A DNA stretch of 10,918 nucleotides, from positions 1-10,918 of the forward strand of contig JAISVN010000029.1 of assembly GCA_031271555.1 (NCBI GenBank), read 5' to 3'. The notes beneath the pieces were generated by a model that ran no database searches, was not told the DNA's origin, and saw only the letters and a list, made by a program, of their open reading frames with translations. The first letter of the stretch is position 1. Every line of letters begins with the position of its first letter. This DNA comes from Candidatus Methanoplasma sp. Lineage in GTDB: Archaea; Thermoplasmatota; Thermoplasmata; Methanomassiliicoccales; Methanomethylophilaceae. Positions 1-10,086 of this stretch are shown here, in pieces. Position numbers and translations under genes: made by a program.

Positions 1-1757
1 ATAGTATCCAGTATGACATCCGGATAACAGTGTCTGGAAAGGCCGTTGCCTTTGCCCGGAAGCCATTCGAGAGTGCCGTGCGTTCCCATATGCACGACGC
101 AGTCGGCTTTGAATATGTCCCGTATCCATCTGTAGTATGCAAGATACTGATGGGGCATTACGACCCTCGGATCGTGATACAGCGTCTCCGCCTGCTCATG
201 CTGGCCCCTGTTGGGCTGTATCCCGATGAACACATTGCCGTTCCTTACGCCGGGTACTATGAATTTGCCCTCGTGTACCGATATTATTCCCGGCGGTTCC
301 CCCCAGCTTCTCACCATGCCTTCCCTCGCTTTGGAAGATAAAGAGTTGAACCATCCCATGTATCGATCTATGCCTATCAGATCCGCGGCTCGGCCTGATA
401 TCTCGCTCTCCGGTATCCACTCGAGATCGCTTGTTACGCCGGCGAGTACTTCGTTGACGATCTCATTTCCGTTCTCAGGGATATGATCCACCACATAGCC
501 TTTTTCCTTCATTGATATCAGGCAGTTCCTGATGCTCTCGAACGTGTCAAGGCCTGCGGCCCCTCCGACGCGGTCGTTCGTGGGAGGGTACATGTTCAGA
601 AGTATGACCGTCTTCCTTTCTTCGGGGGGCTTGCGCCGAAGATTCGCCCACGCTATCGCAAGCGTTGAAATCCTCTCTATTCTGTCCGGAACGGACACCG
701 TTTCGAATTTCCCGGTTTCATCCCTTATTGTGAAACCCAGAGGCACAGATATTATCTGCCCGTCGAACTCCGGCCATATTACGCTGACGCCTATCTCCAC
801 CGAACTCAATCCTATTATGTCCTCGTCCCAATCCTCCGGCGGCCGCATGACGTTGATCGCCTGTATTATCGGGACGTCGAGGTCCCCCAGAAAATTATAG
901 GCCTCTCCGTCACCGCTGCTCGGGCTGCTGAGGGATATCTGAGAGAATCCCAGCGTCATGATCACCGATTCCATTACGGGTTTCCCGTCAAGCATCATGT
1001 ATTTTTCTATCGTTTTTCTTATCCCTATGCTTCCCGTGATCGGGTTCGGAGCAGACTCGAAGAATATCGGTACGACGTTCACATCTCTTCTGCGCAGGTC
1101 TTCTATAAGGTCATCCACTGCTCCCGACCGTTCTTTCAGTAGGGTCGTGTTATGCAGCATCACTCCGATAGTCGGCTTTGAACGGTCAAGGCCCCTTAGA
1201 TATTCTTCAGGATCCGCATCCTCGGACATCCACGGGAGGTAAAGCCCCTCTGTGCGGCTGAATGCCGGTTCATGAACCTCTATTTCCGGGAATCCGCCTA
1301 TCGTCCTGCATATCCAGAGGCCCATCGATGCGTTGTTATCATGGCCGCCTATCAGAATGTAGGACATTGCTTTCCTGTATTCCTCGTCAGAGTGTTTGAA
1401 CCGGTATCTGTTCTCCTCGTTGGACTCCGGCATGCTTCCCGCATAAAGCACATCCTTCTCCGTTTTGTCTAATATCTCTTTGAGCCTGTGGTATTTCTTG
1501 AACTTGGTGTCATCGCCGTGGAGGCGCATCAACACGATGTCCGCTCTCCTGACTGCCGTGAGGAACTCGATGAATGCCTTCTCATCCGCATCCAGATCCT
1601 GTGAGTCCGCACAGTATACTTCTATCTGGACAGGAACATCGTTGAGTTCGGAGAATGCTTTTCCGATGAATGTGCTGTCATAGTTCATTACGCTGAGGTT
1701 GACCACTCTTATCGTCTTCTCCGGAGCATTCGGATGATTCCTGAACGTTATCGGCAT
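1..1757 (-). CDS. cobN: CobN-type chelatase large subunit, paralog 2 (3' end beyond window)
   Basis: Large subunit of the CobN/ChlH/BchH family, which binds the tetrapyrrole and receives the metal. It works with a ChlI/ChlD-type ATPase. I translated the reverse complement from ATG at 1757. It stays open for 585 codons to the window edge, about half of a usual 1,200-residue CobN. Visible family segments include MPHQYLAYYRW, the HMGTHGTLEWLPGKGNGLS block with GTHG at about residues 558-561, and an N-terminal half that aligns along its length with the complete CobN at 5115-8897. The start is well defined: in-frame TAA and TGA codons lie just upstream and no other start codon intervenes. The ribosome site is weak. 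Only 4 nt separate it from the chlD stop, so translational coupling within a chlI-chlD-cobN operon is likely. The metal and substrate cannot be read from sequence; cobalt is the family default. An intact C-terminal half is assumed, not seen. Confidence 0.93.
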   Translation of the reverse strand, partial: MPITFRNHPNAPEKTIRVVNLSVMNYDSTFIGKAFSELNDVPVQIEVYCADSQDLDADEKAFIEFLTAVRRADIVLMRLHGDDTKFKKYHRLKEILDKTEKDVLYAGSMPESNEENRYRFKHSDEEYRKAMSYILIGGHDNNASMGLWICRTIGGFPEIEVHEPAFSRTEGLYLPWMSEDADPEEYLRGLDRSKPTIGVMLHNTTLLKERSGAVDDLIEDLRRRDVNVVPIFFESAPNPITGSIGIRKTIEKYMMLDGKPVMESVIMTLGFSQISLSSPSSGDGEAYNFLGDLDVPIIQAINVMRPPEDWDEDIIGLSSVEIGVSVIWPEFDGQIISVPLGFTIRDETGKFETVSVPDRIERISTLAIAWANLRRKPPEERKTVILLNMYPPTNDRVGGAAGLDTFESIRNCLISMKEKGYVVDHIPENGNEIVNEVLAGVTSDLEWIPESEISGRAADLIGIDRYMGWFNSLSSKAREGMVRSWGEPPGIISVHEGKFIVPGVRNGNVFIGIQPNRGQHEQAETLYHDPRVVMPHQYLAYYRWIRDIFKADCVVHMGTHGTLEWLPGKGNGLSRHCYPDVILDT

Positions 1758-1761
1758 ACTA

Positions 1762-3651
1762 TCACACTTCTCTCATTACCAATCTGACGGAACTCTCTAT
1801 GAACTCGGCGTTCAGATCCTCCAGGCACAGGTATGTGCCGTTCAGGGCCCTGCAGAGCTCCAGAGCAAGGCCGAACTTCAAAGTGCCTATTTCGGTATCT
1901 ATCACAATGAATCTTATATTGGACTCGGAAAGGGATCTGGCGGTAGACAGCATCTCGTCGATCGGCCTCATGCCTGCGGTATACGGCGCATTGCATCTGC
2001 CGTCCGAAAGGATCACCATTACCGGGCTGGAGTTCTTTGTTATCCTGTCTTTGAGGATCTCATATCCTTTCAGAAGCCCATGGATCAACGGGGTCCTGCC
2101 TCCGGTGGGTATCTCCGCGAGGACCTTGTAGGCTTTCAAGGTGCTTTTCGTCAGAGGAAGGATCTCCTCGGCCTTATCTATCCTGAATACGGCCATTCCG
2201 ATCTCGTCGCGTTTCTGATAGGCGTCCTTAAGCATAGACAATATAGCCCCTTTTACGGCCACCATGCGCTTCTGGGCGCCTATGGAGCCGCTGCCGTCCA
2301 CCAGGAACAGCACGCAGTTGCCCTGCTTCTTCTCCCTCACTTTCTCCCTGAGGTCGTCGGCCTCGAGGACTATGGCCATATCCTTGTGGTCGCGGAGTAT
2401 CTGATACGGAGCGGATGCCCTTATGCTTGCACAGAGGGCTATGTCGCTGATCTTCCCTTTCGGTATCCTGTAGCCTACGCATCTTCCCGCTTTGTCGTTG
2501 GATTTGGATTGGCTGTGGCGCCCGGATTTCCCCGTATCCTGTATCTTCTCCGCATTGGGCATGTAGTCTATTACTCTGAACGTGTCGCCTATGGAGAACA
2601 CCTCTTCCTTGAGGTCCTCGTCCTGCTGCGGCAGAGGCGGAGGAGGCTGCTGATCGTTATCTGGATTTTCTTCCTGATCCCTTTCATCATTCTCTTTATC
2701 ATCCTCTTGATCTTCGTTCTCCTGATCGTCATTCTCCTCCGGCGGCTCCGGAGGTTCCTGTTGCTGCTGGTCATCGTCCCTATCGTTCCTTCTGTGCTCC
2801 AGACAGATGGCTGCGGCATTCTTCAGGTCGTCAAGGTTAGTCATTTCTCGGTCGTCCAATGCAGCGATCGCACATGCCGCATTCATCACCGAGATGTCTC
2901 CTCTGTGTCCGGCCACGTTCAGCTCGTTGCACACTTCGGATATCGCGCCGCAGTATCCGGCAGGTACCCTTGTGAATCTGGCTTTGCTGCGGGCCTTATT
3001 GATATTGGCTGATACCTCTTCCTCTTCTTCCGCATAGGAATCTATGAACTTTTTAGGGTCTGTTTCGTAGGCCAGCCTTCTTTTTATTATTTCTTCTCTT
3101 AGCGTTTCATCATCGATGTTCGATGTGAATACACAGACATCAAAGCGGTCCAAGAGATGCTCTGAAAGCCCGCCCTCGTCAGGATCCATGGTCGCGACAA
3201 GCAGCAGTTCGCAGTTATGTGTCTCCGATATTCCTTCTCTTTCCACTGTGTTGTATCTTGTTCCGGCCGCGTTCATTATCTGGTAAAGAAGATATTCCGG
3301 AAGGAGGTTTATGTTCTCAACAAGAAGGATGTTGTTGTCCGAACGGAGAAGGATGCTGTCGGAAAGCGCTTTCTTTCCGTCTTTCATGGTCCTCTCCATG
3401 TCCATGCCGCCGAATATCTGATCCTCCGTAGCATTCAGCGGAAGCGTCACTATCTTCCTGGTTCCGGCTATGGATGAGATCGAGTTCGCCATCACCGATT
3501 TGCCGGTCCCCTTCGGACCGCATATGAGCATAGATGTTATATCCGGAGATGCCAGCGAGCATGTTATCGCTTTCTTCACATTGTCATTGCCGACTATAGC
3601 GGAGAAAGGATAGTTTGGCCTCACTTTGTTCCGAACGTCGTCTGAAGCCAT
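1762..3651 (-). CDS. chlD: ChlD/BchD-type chelatase subunit (AAA+ plus von Willebrand A domain)
   Basis: Middle subunit of a Mg/Co-chelatase motor, 629 aa and cytoplasmic. It bridges the ChlI ATPase ring to the CobN subunit. Residues 1-290 are an AAA+ domain with an intact Walker A (GPKGTGKS, 45-52). The Walker B region reads LLVENINLL (109-117), where ChlI has YVDEINLL, so the usual Asp-Glu pair is Glu-Asn. The sensor-1 position is Asp156 in TMDPDEGG, where ChlI has Asn. Residues about 288-350 are a very acidic, Gln/Pro-rich linker. Residues about 445-629 are a von Willebrand A domain with MIDAS motif DGSGS (452-456), Thr520 and Asp550. Substituted catalytic residues are known for ChlD subunits, which mainly scaffold. 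The start ATG lies inside the 3' end of chlI (31-nt overlap), with a GGAGGA ribosome site 9 nt upstream. The 4-nt gap to the downstream cobN supports one operon. The symbol follows the family; the true substrate may be a corrin or another tetrapyrrole. Confidence 0.94.
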
Positions 3652-4658
3652 GAGTCCAGTTCCTCCGTGTTAAGAGTGGATTCTTGGAATGGGTTCCTCC
3701 TCATACGGTGCGGCATTACCAATTTTGAAACATGCACAACATCAGACGGGGTCACTTCGGTGCGTTTGTTCATGGCCGCATACGCCACGGCGGCTTTTAT
3801 CAAAGTGAGATCCGCACGGTGGCCGTCCACGCCGAGATGCAGAGGTATCTTCACAGCGGCACGGATGACCTCTTCGCCGGGCTCGATCTCGGTTATGAGT
3901 GAACGCGCATCCATGATGATATCCCTCAGTTTCTGCTGTTCTTTGGAATAGTCCTCTCTGAAACCTTCGGGGTCCTTTTCGAATTCCATGCGCCTCTGGA
4001 TTATCTCCATCCTTCGCGTCTCGTCATGTTCTGATCCGACATCCACAAGAAGGCCGAACCTGTCCAGGAGTTGCGGTCTGAGATCCCCTTCTTCAGGGTT
4101 CATCGTCCCTACCAATATGAATTTTGAAGGATGGGAGTAAGATATCCCTTCCCTTTCGATATAATTGACTCCCATGGCTGCGGCATCGAGAAGAAGGTCC
4201 ACAATGTGGTCGTCGAGAAGGTTGATCTCATCTACGTAGAGTATGTTCCCATTTGCCTTCGCCAATACGCCGGGTTCGAATTTCTTTTTGCCTGTCTTGA
4301 TAGCATGTTCTATATCCAGCGTTCCGGCCACACGGTCCTCGGTAGAGCTCAGAGGCAGCTCAACCACCTTCATTGACGATGATGTCTCCTTCAGCTCCCC
4401 CTTTTCCTTCTTCTCCTGGCAGTCCGGACAAAGGTTGTTTGCATCGTCCCAATCGCACCCGCATGCGCACCCAGATACGATGTGTCTCTCGGGCAGAAGA
4501 TCGGCGAGGGCTCTTACTGCGGTAGACTTTGCAGTTCCTTTCTCCCCTCTTATTAAAACTCCTCCGATCAATGGATAGATCGTATTCAAAATCAACGCTT
4601 CTTTCATGTTTTCCTGGCCTACGATGGCCGTGAACGGATAGACTGACCTCTTCCTCAT
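3621..4658 (-). CDS. chlI: ChlI/BchI-type chelatase AAA+ ATPase subunit
   Basis: ATPase of the Mg/Co-chelatase motor, 345 aa and cytoplasmic. It forms a ring with ChlD and drives metal insertion by a CobN/ChlH subunit. The N-terminus YPFTAIVGQ is the standard ChlI opening. All catalytic elements are present: Walker A GEKGTAKS (38-45), Walker [11 protein letters not shown] (139-148), sensor-1 Asn in TMNPEEGDL (185-193), the LLDRFG arginine (Arg200) and sensor-2 Arg281 in GHRADLTL. Residues 64-80 contain five cysteines (CACGC, then CPDC), a possible zinc site; Cys-bearing inserts here are common in cobalt-chelatase-associated ChlI proteins. It is first in the chlI-chlD-cobN operon. No ribosome site precedes the ATG, and the predicted transcription start is only about 10 nt upstream, so the mRNA is probably nearly leaderless. 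The length is normal and nothing is broken. The name ChlI reflects family only; the organism need not make chlorophyll. Confidence 0.95.
3661..3666 (-). promoter_or_regulatory. Ribosome binding site of chlD inside chlI
   Basis: Read on the minus strand this is GGAGGA, 9 nt before the chlD ATG at 3651. It lies within the last codons of chlI. It fixes the chlD start and supports translation of the overlapping gene pair from one transcript. Confidence 0.7.
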
Positions 4659-4682: not shown

Positions 4683-4703
4683 AGTTGGAATATAAATCCA
4701 ACT
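4683..4703 (-). promoter_or_regulatory. chlI promoter: TATA box inside a 7-bp inverted repeat operator
   Basis: On the plus strand the site is AGTTGGA-ATATAAA-TCCAACT, with perfect 7-bp arms and a 7-nt spacer. On the minus strand the spacer reads TTTATAT, a consensus-like archaeal TATA box. Its centre is about 35 nt upstream of the chlI ATG, so initiation about 25 nt downstream gives a leader of about 10 nt. A protein bound to the repeat would cover the TATA box and should block TBP. The same GTTGGA-N7-TCCAAC symmetry recurs at 8927-8945 beside the other promoter of the locus. Promoter identity is well supported by position. The operator role is inference from the paired occurrence, and I do not recognise the regulator. 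Confidence 0.68.
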
Positions 4704-4892
4704 GTAGGTTTACATTATGTATTTATGCACATCCATTGTTCATTATGCATTCATGATAGGGCATAATATCCCATTAGTCCCATGTTACATGTGAAGATTA
4801 AATATATTCTTAAAACGTGAAAAATTACACAAAGTAGGTTCCTAAAATGTGGAAAATCCCACGATTTACATACATAAATACCAAATGAGAAT
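4704..4892. other. AT-rich intergenic spacer
   Basis: About 190 nt between the chlI promoter and the AAA ATPase remnant. No ORF of note and no tRNA-like fold were seen. It is clearly richer in A and T than the flanking genes. It holds a CATGT-T-ACATG palindrome (4781-4791) and a TATA-like AAATATAT near 4800 that could once have served the plus-strand ATPase gene. No terminator or repeat array was recognised. Confidence 0.5.
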
Positions 4893-5116
4893 ATGTGGAA
4901 CACAATATCTATGGTAAACTCATGGAGTGGAAGGAATCGCCTCGCTGCAAACCTCTGATATTGGAAGGTGTAAGGCCGTGCGGCAAGGCCTACATATCAA
5001 AAAAATTTGGAAAAGAGAATTTTGATTCTGCGCTGTACATCAACTTCGAGGAGAATCCGCCCCTCATATCGCTGTCAGAAATGTATCCCGATCCCATAAG
5101 GATGCTGTCCGATCTC
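4893..5116 (+). pseudogene. Truncated AAA ATPase remnant (archaeal AAA_14/DUF4143-type), 5' fragment only
   Basis: The reading frame from GTG 4895 gives YGKLMEWKESPR...KPLILEGVR, then a P-loop-like segment, KKFGKENFDSALYINFEENP and DPIRMLSDL. This is the characteristic N-terminus of the AAA_14/DUF4143 ATPases common in archaea and gut anaerobes, which usually have around 400 residues. Only about 74 residues remain. The P-loop reads GVRPCGKAY, where the family usually has a GxRQxGKT pattern, so the Thr/Ser of Walker A is lost. The ATG at 4893 gives MWNTI, a plausible true N-terminus, but it is in another frame: 2 extra nucleotides near 4908 would explain the switch to YGKLMEW. Similarity stops at about 5116, exactly where the opposing cobN stop codon (TGA, 5117-5115) lies. 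Frameshift, altered P-loop and truncation together argue for a pseudogene. Beyond 5116 the open frame is only the antisense of cobN. Confidence 0.72.
4999..5005 (-). terminator. Possible poly-T terminator for the full-length cobN
   Basis: A run of seven A on the plus strand reads as seven T on the minus strand, about 110 nt downstream of the cobN stop. Euryarchaeal transcription often ends at such T-tracts. It lies inside the ATPase remnant, so it may instead be leftover coding sequence (Lys-Lys codons). Confidence 0.25.
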
Positions 5117-8100
5117 AGGCGGCATCGCCCCTTTTGCCGTTCACCTCTTCCAAGACACCCTCTGTTTCCAGATACAGCTCCTTGAGTCTTTGTTCCATTT
5201 CCTCCGTGGTCTCCCACAGGCCGCGCGATATCGCTTCCAGCATATCCTCAAGTATGCCTCTGAGGGCAAGGGGGTTGCTCTCTTCTATCCATTTGCGGTT
5301 GTCCTCGTCAAAGAGGAAGTGTTCGGTCATGGATTCGTACATCCAATCCTCTATGACATCTGACGTCGCATCCCACCCCAGAGCATGGTTTACGTTCACG
5401 GCTATCAGGTTGGCACCTACGAACCCGTGGTCTTTGAGTCCCTCTATCCACTTTGGATTGAGCAGCCTTGTTCTCATTATGTAAGCCATCTCGCCTTCCA
5501 AGTCTCTGACCTTCAGGCGATCGGGATCGGAACTGTCGCCGATGACGTTGAGCGGCTTCTTTTTGCCGCTGCTTCTCACAACGGCATTTATGCCTCCGAA
5601 GTACGCATACCCGTCATCTGTATCAATAAGATCGAATTCTCTGTCGACCTGGTTCTTGACCGCGACATCCAGCTGATTCAGCCTGTGCCTGAACAGCTCA
5701 GGTTTGGTCTCCCCTCTCCATTTCCTTCCGTATGCGCTGCATCCGCATGTGATGTATATCTGCGCAAGATCGTCAATGTTGTTCCATTTTTTGGATTCGA
5801 TGAGGATGTCCACGCCTGCCCCGTGCGTCCCCGGAGGCTCGCCGAAGACGCGAATCATCGCATTGCTCCTTGCATCATCGGCGGACATGCCGTTCTTGAT
5901 CATCTCTGCAATGTCTTTCTGAAGATGTTTTCTTATGAAGTTCTTCTCATCTCCTTCATCCAGATCCGCTACCAACTCCACCGCCTCGTCGATCAGCTGG
6001 AAAAGGTTCGGGAACGTATCTCTGAAAAGACTGCTTATCCTCACGGTCACATCTATCCTCGGCCTTTTCAGTTCCTCCTGCGATATAACCTCAAGTCCGT
6101 TTATCTTGCCTCCTGTAGAACCCCAGATCGGGCGGACACCCATAAGATACAGTATATAGGCGACATCATCGCCTCCGGTCTTCATCGTATCCACAGACCA
6201 GACCACTATTCCGACATTCTCGGGATAGGTCCCCTCATCCTCGATGTAGCGTTCGATCATCTGGTCCGCCATCTTCATGCCGGCCTTCCAGCTTGATTGA
6301 GTAGGAACAGTCTCAGGGTCAAGGGAATAATAGTTCTTGCCGGTCGGAAGCAGGTGGGCATTCCCTCTGGTCGGAGAACCTGAAGGTCCAGGAGGAACGA
6401 AGCCTCCTCCCAACCCATTAAGTCCGTTCGTCAGTTCTTCGACCATCCCGAGGATGCTCGGGTGAACAGAATTGCAGATGAATTCCGTGACCCGCAGAAC
6501 ATTCTCATTGTTCTCCGGACAGAACTCTTTTGCCAAGGCTAAGCATTCATCGATCCTGTATTCGTGCTCCTGCATAGCGAATAGAAGCTCTTGGGTCTTA
6601 TCGTCGACCCTGTTCACTATGCCTCCGTTGACCTCTCCCGTGACGCTGTTGATCGATGAGAAATTATCCATCAATTCATCGAGATCGAATCCCATGCTCT
6701 CAGCGACCGATATCCTCAGTGAGGGCATGCCGCCGTTCCTGAGCCTTGTGAGGCAGTACACCATCTCCTGCATATGGCGCCCTTCGGGCACTTTGCCCAG
6801 TATATGTAGGCCGTCTGTTATGAGGCCGTCCTTAAGGTCTGAGACGTAATCGTATATCGTCTCTATCCTTTCCATGACCTCTTCTATGGGGGCGTCCTCT
6901 TCTATCTTCAGCTCTTTCCACATTGACATCTCTTTTATGAGCCCGTACACGGTCTCGGCTATTCCGGGAAGCTTATCCTTTTGGAAAGTGCTTCTGCAGA
7001 AAAGATAGTCATGGATATTCGCCTCCAGTTCCATTAGTTTATCATATGTCCCCGCACGGGTCAGCGAAGGCATCATATGATCCACTAGGACCGAATTCTT
7101 GCGTCTTTTTGCCACTATCCCCTCAGAGGGGTCGTCTATAACGTACACATACAGGTTCGGTATGTGCTGCATCATTATGTCCGGAAAACATTCTTCCGAG
7201 AGGCCGTTGCCTTTTCCGGGCAGCCACTCCAATGAACCGTGCGTTCCGACATGAACATGAATGTCTGTTTTGAAGCCTTGAGCGATCCATCTGTAGTATG
7301 CAAGATACTGATGAGGCATTACTATGTGCGGATCGTGTATCAGCTCCTCCGCCTTCTCATGCTTCCCTCTGATCGGTTCCATTCCGAGATAGACGTTGCC
7401 GTTGACCACTCCGGGTATTATGAAGCGGCCGTTGTATGACATTACGCTTCCGGGAGGATCACCCCAGTTACGGCACATGCGCCCTCTGGGAACCTCATGG
7501 AGTTCGTCAAGCCATTTTTTGTATCTATCGACGCTCATAAGCTCCATTGCCTGTTCTTCTATGTCCTTATCGGTCTTCCATTCGAGATCGTTGGTCAGCG
7601 AGGAATTCATCTCATCGATTATCTCCTGTCCGCTCTGAGGAACATGATCGAGCGTGTACCCGGCATCCGCCATTACCTCGAGCATATTCCTGATGCTCTC
7701 AAAAGAATCGAGACCGCCCGCGCTCCCGAGTCCCGCTCCGCTTCCGTTGACGAGAATTGATACTTTCCTGTCTTTTATCGGGACCTTGCATATTGCTGCC
7801 CACTTTACCGCCATTCCCGCTATCCGTTCTATCCTGTCCTGACGCCACGTGTGGTAATCTCTTCCGTCCTCGTCCTTCTCATTGAAAAGGAACGGCACTG
7901 TTGTGAGCAGACCGTCCAATTCGGGCAGTGCTACGCATATAGCAAGCTCTCCGCCCTCCATACCTATCTCGTCATCCTTCCAAGCCTGCTGGGATCTGAA
8001 TATCGGTATCGCCTGAAGCGCCGTCACGTCAAGGTCCTGGTAAAAATTGAATCTGTTGCCGGAGCCGTCTCCTGGATCGGAGAGGGCTACCTGTGAGAAT

Positions 8101-8897
8101 GCATTAGGTGTGATGATGGAGCCGACTATCGCTTTACCGTCCTTTTTGAAATATTGTTCCACCAATTTTATGGCGCCGGTGGAACCGGTTATATCGCTGG
8201 GTGCGGGTATGTAGAAGACAGGTATCGTGTTCGCTCCGAGCTTTTCCACTTCCCTTATCAATATGTTGTAAGGCTCCAGCTTTTTATTGAGCCACGCACC
8301 GTGGGGGAACATTATGCCCACCGTAGGCTTCTCCGGGTCTAAAGTGGGGTAGTAATCCTCAGGTTTCACATCCAGCGGGAAGTCCGGATGATAAAGGCCC
8401 TGGGCGCGGCTCCTCACAGGTTCAGGTACGTCTATTTCTGCGCCTCCGATATTTTTGAGCAACCAGAGGACCAAGCCCTTGCGGTTTTCTTCGCCGCCCA
8501 ACTGTATGTACCTCCTGATCATCAGGAACTCTTCATCCGTTCCTTTGAACAGCGGACGGTTGTCTATTACGGATTCCTCTATGTTGCAAAGAAGGAACGT
8601 ATTGATACTGTTCTCAAGGATGCATGCTTTCAGCGGGTCGAATTTCTTGTACCCGGACACATCGCCGTGCATGTTGATCATGAATAGGTCGGAGGACCTC
8701 GCCGCCTTCTGCATCTCTCTGAACTCTTTAGGATCTCTGATGGTGTCCTCTGAGTCGAAGGTTATGAAGTTGATCGAGATCCCATCGGTCTTTTCGAACA
8801 GATTCCCCAACACCGGTGCAAGATTCATTCCTCCGACATTCAGATAGACTATTGTGAGTTCTTTACCTTTTTTTGCAGTGTTTTTGTACATCCTCAT
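5115..8897 (-). CDS. cobN: CobN-type cobalt/metal chelatase large subunit, paralog 1 (complete)
   Basis: Full-length CobN/ChlH/BchH family subunit, about 1,260 aa, a normal length. It is expected to hold the corrin or porphyrin and the metal (classically Co2+ into a hydrogenobyrinate-type substrate) while ChlI/ChlD hydrolyse ATP. Landmarks are an N-terminal [11 protein letters not shown] strand, [20 protein letters not shown], and the signature [20 protein letters not shown] with GTHG at about residues 551-554. Further on are [32 protein letters not shown], here quoted only as its GNAHLLPTG core, and [11 protein letters not shown] and YGRKWRG. I chose ATG 8897 because AAAGGAGG (8914-8907) sits 9 nt before it. 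The upstream in-frame ATG at 8906 abuts that site with no spacing, and ATG 8891 is also possible. It stands alone behind a divergent promoter shared with a substrate-binding protein gene. Its stop codon falls at the junction with an ATPase remnant. The other CobN (1-1757) is clearly paralogous. Which substrate or metal each handles is unknown. Confidence 0.95.
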   Translation of the reverse strand: [1260 protein letters not shown]

Positions 8898-8906
8898 TAA
8901 ATGCAT

Positions 8907-8914
8907 CCTCCTTT
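8907..8914 (-). promoter_or_regulatory. Ribosome binding site of full-length cobN
   Basis: Reads AAAGGAGG on the minus strand. The spacing is 9 nt to ATG 8897, 15 nt to ATG 8891 and 0 nt to ATG 8906, which makes 8897 the best start. Confidence 0.7.
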
Positions 8915-8926
8915 GGCATTACTTAT

Positions 8927-8945
8927 GTTGGAGTATACATCCAAC
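8927..8945. promoter_or_regulatory. Operator-like inverted repeat GTTGGA-N7-TCCAAC in the divergent promoter
   Basis: Perfect 6-bp arms, GTTGGA and TCCAAC, with a 7-nt spacer (GTATACA). Arm sequence and spacing match the chlI promoter site at 4683-4703. The repeat directly abuts the TATA element at 8946-8953. For cobN (minus) it lies between the TATA box and the expected transcription start. For the binding-protein gene (plus) it lies just upstream of the TATA box. One bound regulator could thus repress cobN and repress or activate the transporter gene. TTGAA at 8974-8978 resembles part of a half-site but is unpaired. The regulator is not in the window. Confidence 0.65.
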
Positions 8946-8953
8946 TATAAATA
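8946..8953. promoter_or_regulatory. TATA element serving the divergent cobN and binding-protein promoters
   Basis: Reads TATAAATA on the plus strand and TATTTATA on the minus strand, so it is a plausible TBP site in both directions. Starts about 26 nt away would fall near 8923 (minus) and 8976 (plus). Both leaders would then be about 25 nt, each containing a strong GGAGG site. A second, weaker AT element (TTTAATAG, 8965-8972) lies nearby. Confidence 0.6.
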
Positions 8954-9000: not shown

Positions 9001-10086
9001 ATGGATAGTAAATGGATAATAGTGATCATTACAGCTGCAATCATAGTGATTGCGGGCGCAGCGGTCGTCGTTATAGGCGATGATAAAAACGAGAGGGGAA
9101 ATGGACCGGTCACTGTCACAGATGGGCTTGGAAATGAGGTCTACATAGAATCCTCAGACAAAGTATCATCCACATCCGCAACGGTCACAGAGATAATATG
9201 CGGCATAGGAGCATATTCAAAGATCGCAGGCGTTACTGTTGATGACGGACCATACAAAGTGAATGAAAAGATAATAGGTCTGGCCGATGACGGATATCCA
9301 GGTTCCATATTGGAGGGAATTAAGAACAATACCATAACGGACATGGGAGGAATGTGGAACATAGCTGCGGAATCCATCCTTAAATCCGAACCCGATCTTG
9401 TAATAATGGGCGGCTATTTCAACAGCCCCGATACAATAACGGCACTCGGGAATATGGATATCCCCGTGGTAATATGCAAAGACGACAACTCGTTGGATAA
9501 CATCTACTTTAACATAGAGCTCATAGGAAAGGCATTGGGCATGGAATCTGAAGCCGAATCTCTTGTAAAAGACATGAAGTCTTCCATCAAGAAGATAGTG
9601 GATTGGACAGATTCTCTGAATGATGAACCCGAAAGCGTGGCTGTGTTTATGGGGTACGGTTCACAATACGGAACCTATGCCAACGGCCAAACCTACCTGA
9701 TGGGGTCACCGATGATAACAATGCTCGGAGGAACCAATGCGTTCTCCGGCATAAAGGGCATGTATGAGATAGTGTCGACCGAGTCGGTAATTACTGCAAA
9801 TCCAGACATCATAATCGACTCTAGCCCGGCTGGAAAGACAGAACTTGAATCAGTAACTACAAGTACGTTAACCAGCGGCATATCTGCGGTCAAGAATGAC
9901 AGAGTCTATGGCACGTTCGACTCCTGCGGTTCGGCATTTACTTTGACCAGTCAGGGAATTGTAAATTCTGTGGCCATAATGGCGATGTTCATGTATGAGG
10001 ATCATCTGAACTTCGATATAGATCATTTCATGGGCGATGACTACACATCATATCTTGAAAGTTTCTGGAAAATGATCAATGCATAA
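9001..10086 (+). CDS. ABC transporter substrate-binding protein, iron-siderophore/cobalamin class (Peripla_BP_2)
   Basis: Extracytoplasmic binding protein of 361 aa, similar in design to FepB/FhuD/BtuF. It would capture a chelated metal or corrinoid and pass it to a BtuC/FecD-type permease. Residues 5-26 are a strongly hydrophobic segment (IIVIITAAIIVIAG core) after a short MDSKW start. No lipobox cysteine is visible, so it is probably held by an uncleaved N-terminal anchor. The mature part opens with VTVTDGLGNEVYI, typical of the family. The first lobe contains ESILKSEPDLVIMGG, a linking helix spans about residues 162-205, and the second lobe contains ESVITANPDIIIDSS. The start is set by AAAGGAGG at 8988-8995. 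It is transcribed divergently from cobN through a shared operator-bearing promoter. No permease or ATPase gene is in the window, which is odd for this class. A paralog converges on it at 10271-10918. The ligand cannot be determined; corrinoid, haem-like or siderophore are all possible. Confidence 0.93.
   Translation: MDSKWIIVIITAAIIVIAGAAVVVIGDDKNERGNGPVTVTDGLGNEVYIESSDKVSSTSATVTEIICGIGAYSKIAGVTVDDGPYKVNEKIIGLADDGYPGSILEGIKNNTITDMGGMWNIAAESILKSEPDLVIMGGYFNSPDTITALGNMDIPVVICKDDNSLDNIYFNIELIGKALGMESEAESLVKDMKSSIKKIVDWTDSLNDEPESVAVFMGYGSQYGTYANGQTYLMGSPMITMLGGTNAFSGIKGMYEIVSTESVITANPDIIIDSSPAGKTELESVTTSTLTSGISAVKNDRVYGTFDSCGSAFTLTSQGIVNSVAIMAMFMYEDHLNFDIDHFMGDDYTSYLESFWKMINA

Follow-up and report, generated by a model that had tools for sequence, protein, structure and literature searches.

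A conserved palindrome before corrinoid genes of Methanomassiliicoccales and its candidate DUF4443 reader

Bacteria mostly control their vitamin B12 genes by riboswitches, and the bacterial cobalamin riboswitch coordinates the genes of B12 uptake with those of synthesis. The DtxR and Fur regulons have palindromic operators and metal uptake genes as targets. For archaea, Rodionov and others are said to have described in 2003 a DNA signal, the "CBL-box", that precedes B12 genes in some of them and would serve a hypothetical regulator; to our knowledge, the protein that controls archaeal B12 genes has not yet been named. Here, we analyzed a 10,918-nucleotide stretch of DNA from Candidatus Methanoplasma sp. 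(assembly GCA_031271555.1, contig JAISVN010000029.1), hereafter called the window, in which one palindrome, GTTGGA-N7-TCCAAC, occurs twice, before genes for predicted chelatase subunits and a substrate-binding protein. From sequence comparisons, we read this palindrome with good confidence as the operator of an archaeal corrinoid (B12) regulon, with a repressor of the DUF4443 family as its candidate reader.

The palindrome in the window and across the order

The window contains the following operator-like and promoter-like elements:

4683..4703, no strand: operator-like palindrome 1, AGTTGGA-ATATAAA-TCCAACT; exact match; contains a TATA-like element of the predicted chlI-chlD-cobN promoter
8927..8945, no strand: operator-like palindrome 2, GTTGGA-GTATACA-TCCAAC; exact match; lies between the divergent cobN and binding-protein genes
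8946..8953, + strand: predicted TATA-like element TATAAATA, read from the sequence, abutting palindrome 2

Both perfect inverted repeats are present exactly where the first-pass annotation had placed them, with the core of palindrome 1 at 4684-4702. That annotation also had them containing or abutting a TATA box, and this agrees with our reading of the letters: palindrome 1 encloses the TATA-like ATATAAA, and palindrome 2 abuts the predicted element listed above. Its further claim, that the pair is unlikely to have arisen by chance, is borne out by controls with the reversed pattern. The 929,037-base draft genome that holds the window (68.6% complete) has two exact matches, both in the window, and no match to the reversed pattern. 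We then scanned a set of 61 genomes, made up of this genome and 60 relatives from 26 genera, and found 88 exact occurrences in 37 genomes against 3 of the reversed pattern. A chance origin of the motif is incompatible with these controls.

The 71 intergenic sites described below, read on both strands, refine the consensus to GTTGGAT-N5-ATCCAAC, with T at position 7 in 84% and A or T at the middle base in 98%. With at most one mismatch to TTGGAT-N5-ATCCAA, every one of the 61 genomes has a match (671 occurrences against 28 for the control). Furthermore, a 292-genome sample of the phylum includes 39 genomes from the order, of which 36 have the exact core; of 51 that belong to the class but not to the order, 2 have it. 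The refined motif is conserved at the sequence level across the order Methanomassiliicoccales.

Weaker sites also exist in the window's own genome besides the two exact ones, since the refined motif with up to three mismatches gives 61 matches there and its control 13. In the window by itself, matches at this threshold are not commoner than in shuffles (3 found, 4.46 expected), so significance rests on the exact matches and on the relatives.

We next looked upstream of chlI homologues in 30 loci, two of which were set aside for want of an anchor. Allowing three mismatches, we found a site before 11 of the remaining 28 (10 of 27 when the window's own is left out); the control gave none in the same 28 regions, and shuffles gave about 1%. 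These 11 are a minority that includes the two closest relatives. Below, G-numbers denote genomes (G000 is the window's own) and L-numbers denote fetched loci or stretches. The 19-mer of palindrome 1 is identical before chlI in G001 and has one change in G005, and the spacing is the same in G000, G001 and G005. The first-pass annotation centred on a single regulator that would respond to metal or corrinoid and tie the chelatase operons to that of the binding protein. This idea gains support from both the frequency of the motif and its conservation before chlI.

Genes behind the sites and the mode of control

The 74 fetched stretches, together with the window, cover 76 of the 88 exact sites, and 71 of the 76 are intergenic with respect to predicted genes. 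The other five (L171, L182, L189, L192, L197) lie inside predicted genes and were left out of the operon count; those of L171 and L192 fall within a phosphopantothenate-synthetase gene, and that of L189 may reflect a start called too long. A corrinoid or cobalt gene comes first downstream of 29 of the 71 intergenic sites and is among the first four genes at 37 of 71, tandem sites being counted apart. For comparison, 60 loci selected by Fur or DtxR contain 254 genes, 2 of which are of this kind; as a background this fits the first-gene count better than the four-gene count, because it counts genes and not operons. Core gene labels at the 71 sites come from BLAST to one or a few reference proteins.

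Pfam and NCBIfam profiles behind exact sites identify CobN, ChlI, BtuF-type binding proteins, FecCD permeases, CobA/BtuR, CbiA, CbiD, CbiH, CbiT, CbiK and CobT, with CbiM as a fourth gene, as well as a ribonucleotide reductase with a TSCPD domain and a NifH-NifD-like fusion. Across genomes, the predicted targets comprise corrinoid-type uptake (Peripla_BP_2, FecCD and ATP-binding cassette (ABC) genes, families that also include members with other substrates, and systems resembling energy-coupling factor (ECF) transporters), cobalt insertion and uptake (CobN/ChlID, CbiK, CbiM, NicO), ring building (CbiD, CbiH, CbiT), adenosylation (CobA/BtuR) and CobT. In the window's own genome, where some matches at two or three mismatches are expected by chance, a site with three mismatches precedes a run of aminotransferase and CbiB genes, sites with two or three precede transporter genes with FecCD beside HemA, and two such sites 115 bp apart precede a second ChlI gene.

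It is possible, but unlikely, that the regulator senses cobalt or another metal instead of corrinoid. The NicO and CbiM transporters and the cobalt chelatases among the targets would suit a cobalt sensor, but other targets act later than cobalt insertion (CobA, CbiB, CobS, CobT) or belong to corrinoid-type importers. Moreover, DUF4443 has no conserved Cys/His ligand set, its best column being His in 8 of 13 and 30 of 49 rows.

The position of the sites bears on the mode of control. Among the 57 site-gene pairs no more than 120 nt apart, the site lies at a median of 30 nt from the predicted start; TATA-like hexamers cluster either inside the site (16, partly owing to the A/T-rich middle of the motif) or 26-30 nt ahead of it (18). 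In archaea, a protein bound over the TATA box or start region interferes with the formation of the initiation complex. Both placements would have this effect, which makes repression the likelier mode. Activation is improbable: a site does precede genes for the TSCPD-domain ribonucleotide reductase, which we take to be the class II, B12-dependent type, in two genomes of one genus (L195 by Pfam, L196 by BLAST), yet the sites lie on the TATA box or start region, where a bound protein blocks the initiation complex, and not upstream of the promoter.

The predicted genes of the window are as follows:

3621..4658, - strand: ChlI-type AAA subunit; first gene behind palindrome 1, at 25 nt
1762..3651, - strand: ChlD-type AAA/VWA subunit
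3..1757, - strand: CobN-type chelatase subunit, cut by the window end
5115..8897, - strand: second CobN-type chelatase subunit, 1260 residues; 29 nt behind palindrome 2
9001..10086, + strand: Peripla_BP_2 substrate-binding protein (BtuF/FepB-like), divergent; 55 nt behind palindrome 2

The names ChlI, ChlD, CobN (twice) and Peripla_BP_2 binding protein given at first pass were right. The second CobN probably starts at 8897, which sits 9 nt behind AAAGGAGG, and not at 8906. Additionally, a 96-residue frame at 4895-5185 on the + strand overlaps the 3' end of cobN and has a borderline AAA_14 match over its N-terminal part only; it is probably the remnant of an ATPase gene.

Recurrent neighbours of the sites that are not corrinoid genes include an alcohol dehydrogenase followed by a protein of about 372 residues, an amino-acid permease, and the radical SAM protein CbpB divergent to an amidohydrolase. 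In L158, L162, L167 and L236, one or two sites lie between the divergent genes for CbpB, a radical SAM peptide enzyme, and the amidohydrolase, and genes of 55-57 residues are predicted downstream of cbpB. The CbpB label comes from TIGR04163 for the L167 protein and from BLAST for the other three. This peptide-modifying system may belong to the B12 regulon. In L180 (G023), two sites 136 bp apart precede the NifH-NifD fusion and then a CbiA-like gene, a set that possibly encodes enzymes of F430 or another tetrapyrrole.

The short DUF4443 protein as candidate regulator

The candidate reader is a winged-helix protein of about 195 residues with a DUF4443 domain (Pfam), a member of the PH0730 family. 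We searched public genomes with the 14-base form of the motif, which returned at least 119 stretches, at least 27 of them archaeal by title; the non-archaeal matches were taken as chance and examined by profile searches only. The winged-helix protein recurs beside the site in the archaeal stretches. Among the matches listed, at least 119, the DUF4443 profile finds six loci, all archaeal (L046, L062, L069, L083, L122, L138), which amounts to 6 of 27 archaeal loci against 0 of 92 others. Proteins from L062, L069, L083, L138, L416 and L435 have PF14544 at the C-terminus above the curated cut-off and a winged helix at the N-terminus, although some of the winged-helix matches fall below cut-off; the L122 protein is a truncated gene call.

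DUF4443 is found in 60 of the 61 genomes, missing only from the window's own incomplete genome, and in 1 of 14 named control genomes, Sulfolobus acidocaldarius having the family. Among genomes of the phylum sample that lie outside the order, 7 of the 9 with DUF4443 have the exact core, and so do 54 of the 244 without it (Fisher one-sided p 0.0008). The motif scan listed at least 27 archaeal records; DUF4443 is present in 14 of the 16 genomes tested among them, or 11 of 13 without the order-like members L069, L080 and L100, and eleven listed records outside the 16 look like members of the order by title. The two negatives, L102 and L115, have no recognisable corrinoid gene at the site.

The strongest point for DUF4443 as the regulator is synteny at the level of operons. 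In G204, ATTGGATGTATTATCCAAT (2 mismatches) heads an operon that encodes a BtuF-type binding protein, a FecCD permease, an ABC ATPase, a 141-residue protein, CobS, a 232-residue protein, a CobY-like protein (labelled by position and an NTP-transferase domain), DUF4443 and a CobT-like protein. The arrangement recurs in G246, on two contigs. Among Thaumarchaeota, an exact site heads NicO-DUF4443 in L429 and lies between divergent NicO and DUF4443 genes in L424; in L137 the site heads NicO, and DUF4443 is encoded elsewhere in the same genome. In one Bathyarchaeota genome (L435), the genes headed by the site are an ECF S-component-like one (below the Pfam cut-off), DUF4430 and DUF4443. The gene order in G080 is metK, DUF4443, exact site, DUF4430 and DUF6580, and in G043 it is metK, DUF4443, a 2-mismatch site, a beta-propeller protein, a 164-residue protein, CbiQ and a double ABC ATPase.

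In 25 of 30 loci (L298-L327), the gene immediately before the short DUF4443 gene is that for S-adenosylmethionine synthetase (metK). Another gene takes this place in L309, L311 and L318, and two further loci end there. The metK label rests on Pfam for L310 and on sequence likeness elsewhere.

Several observations weigh against a corrinoid operator read by the short DUF4443 protein. Only 11 of 28 upstream regions of chlI homologues bear a site, at 34 of the 71 intergenic sites none of the first four genes is recognised as a corrinoid gene, and the extra sites in the window's own genome have two or three mismatches, a range in which the control also matches (13 against 61). A site before the B12-dependent-type ribonucleotide reductase would be unexpected for a repressor active under ample B12. 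As for the protein, no DUF4443 match was found in G000, a 68.6% complete draft; 54 of the 244 DUF4443-negative genomes outside the order contain the exact core; and the DUF4443-positive G071 and weakly positive G082 lack it. Within Methanomassiliicoccales, BLAST recognised no corrinoid gene beside DUF4443 (0 of 111 genes in 30 loci). Lastly, L438 has a 2-mismatch site just before a longer DUF4443 paralogue.

The same operator and regulon might instead be read by another factor, namely Fur, DtxR, the long DUF4443 paralogue or an unrecognised protein, with the short DUF4443 protein a mere neighbour; we regard this as rather improbable. Fur-family genes occur near sites in L244, L248, L249 and L258, Fur precedes CbiM in the gene run headed by a site in L235, and the window's genome has Fur where DUF4443 was not found. 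Fur is rejected as the regulator, being patchy (30 of 61 genomes) and absent from G025, a single-contig genome, 99% complete, with 23 relaxed sites. DtxR, a type of regulator suggested at first pass, occurs in 57 of 61 genomes, almost matching the spread of the motif, and its gene lies in three fetched motif stretches (L127, L139, L179). We do not retain it, as none of 30 DtxR loci of about 3 kb has a site with up to three mismatches, and among the at least 119 listed matches DUF4443 occurs in 6 motif loci against 2 for DtxR, with DUF4443 spread over several archaeal groups. The long paralogue (about 320 residues) is not favoured either, since four 4-kb stretches that carry it (L408-L411) have no site with up to two mismatches, L438 being the exception.

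A Fur-family gene lies inside or next to site-bearing genes in L235 (2906-3298) and L248, in L235 just before CbiM. Because the L235 gene is part of a site-bearing run for cobalt uptake, Fur may be a target or a second regulatory layer. The long DUF4443 proteins of L408-L411 and L438 have a C-terminal DUF2111 domain (by Pfam for L408 only) and are encoded beside an ABC protein that, we presume, resembles component A2 of methyl-coenzyme M reductase; the long protein is perhaps a regulator of methanogenesis genes.

For the short DUF4443 protein as repressor, we propose the following mechanism. The regulator would be dimeric because its site is palindromic, and a dimer of the winged-helix protein would bind each palindrome. 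Since the site covers the TATA box or start region, the bound protein would block the complex of TBP, TFB and polymerase. With corrinoid (or its cobalt) in sufficient supply, the regulator would keep import and synthesis repressed; under shortage it would leave its site. This would put chlI-chlD-cobN, the second cobN and the binding-protein gene of the window under one switch.

Comparison with known systems

In a broader form, we lean towards the view that DUF4443/PH0730 proteins are the long-missing B12 regulators of archaea. They would be corrinoid-sensing repressors with a tRNA-synthetase-like sensor domain that read the refined motif across several phyla of archaea. Under their control would be the import and synthesis of corrinoids and some of the enzymes that use them, those of methyl-reducing gut methanogens among them. 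These methanogens use methylated compounds via corrinoid proteins, and corrinoid supply may therefore limit methane output in guts and wetlands. The analysis gives a lead to the function of an archaeal family that Pfam lists as of unknown function. It also yields a concrete candidate protein-operator pair, a solved relative and a regulon with candidate members such as the CbpB radical SAM system and the alcohol dehydrogenase operon.

The solved relative is PH0730 of Pyrococcus horikoshii (PDB 2p8t), which belongs to the same DUF4443/PH0730-like family. It was deposited as a hypothetical protein; the database listings name no operator, ligand or regulon for it, and one paper names it only as a winged-helix family. 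In the literature collection searched by word, no paper named DUF4443, none paired COG1777 with archaea, and none used the term CBL-box or CBL box. The archaeal CBL-box may be the same motif as the one described here, in which case the motif itself is already known.

A role of the repeat as a hairpin or riboswitch in the leader RNA is extremely improbable: its seven-base arms and five-base loop could pair in RNA, but no Rfam family reaches threshold in the window, the cobalamin riboswitch included, the spacer centre is A/T-rich, and many sites contain a TATA box and therefore would lie upstream of the transcript. The bacterial cobalamin riboswitch is an RNA element, whereas here a short DNA palindrome lies on a predicted promoter. 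The DtxR and Fur regulons fit this motif less well in gene distribution and neighbourhoods. Among the closest known systems to the proposed repressor are winged-helix proteins of the CggR and MarR type.

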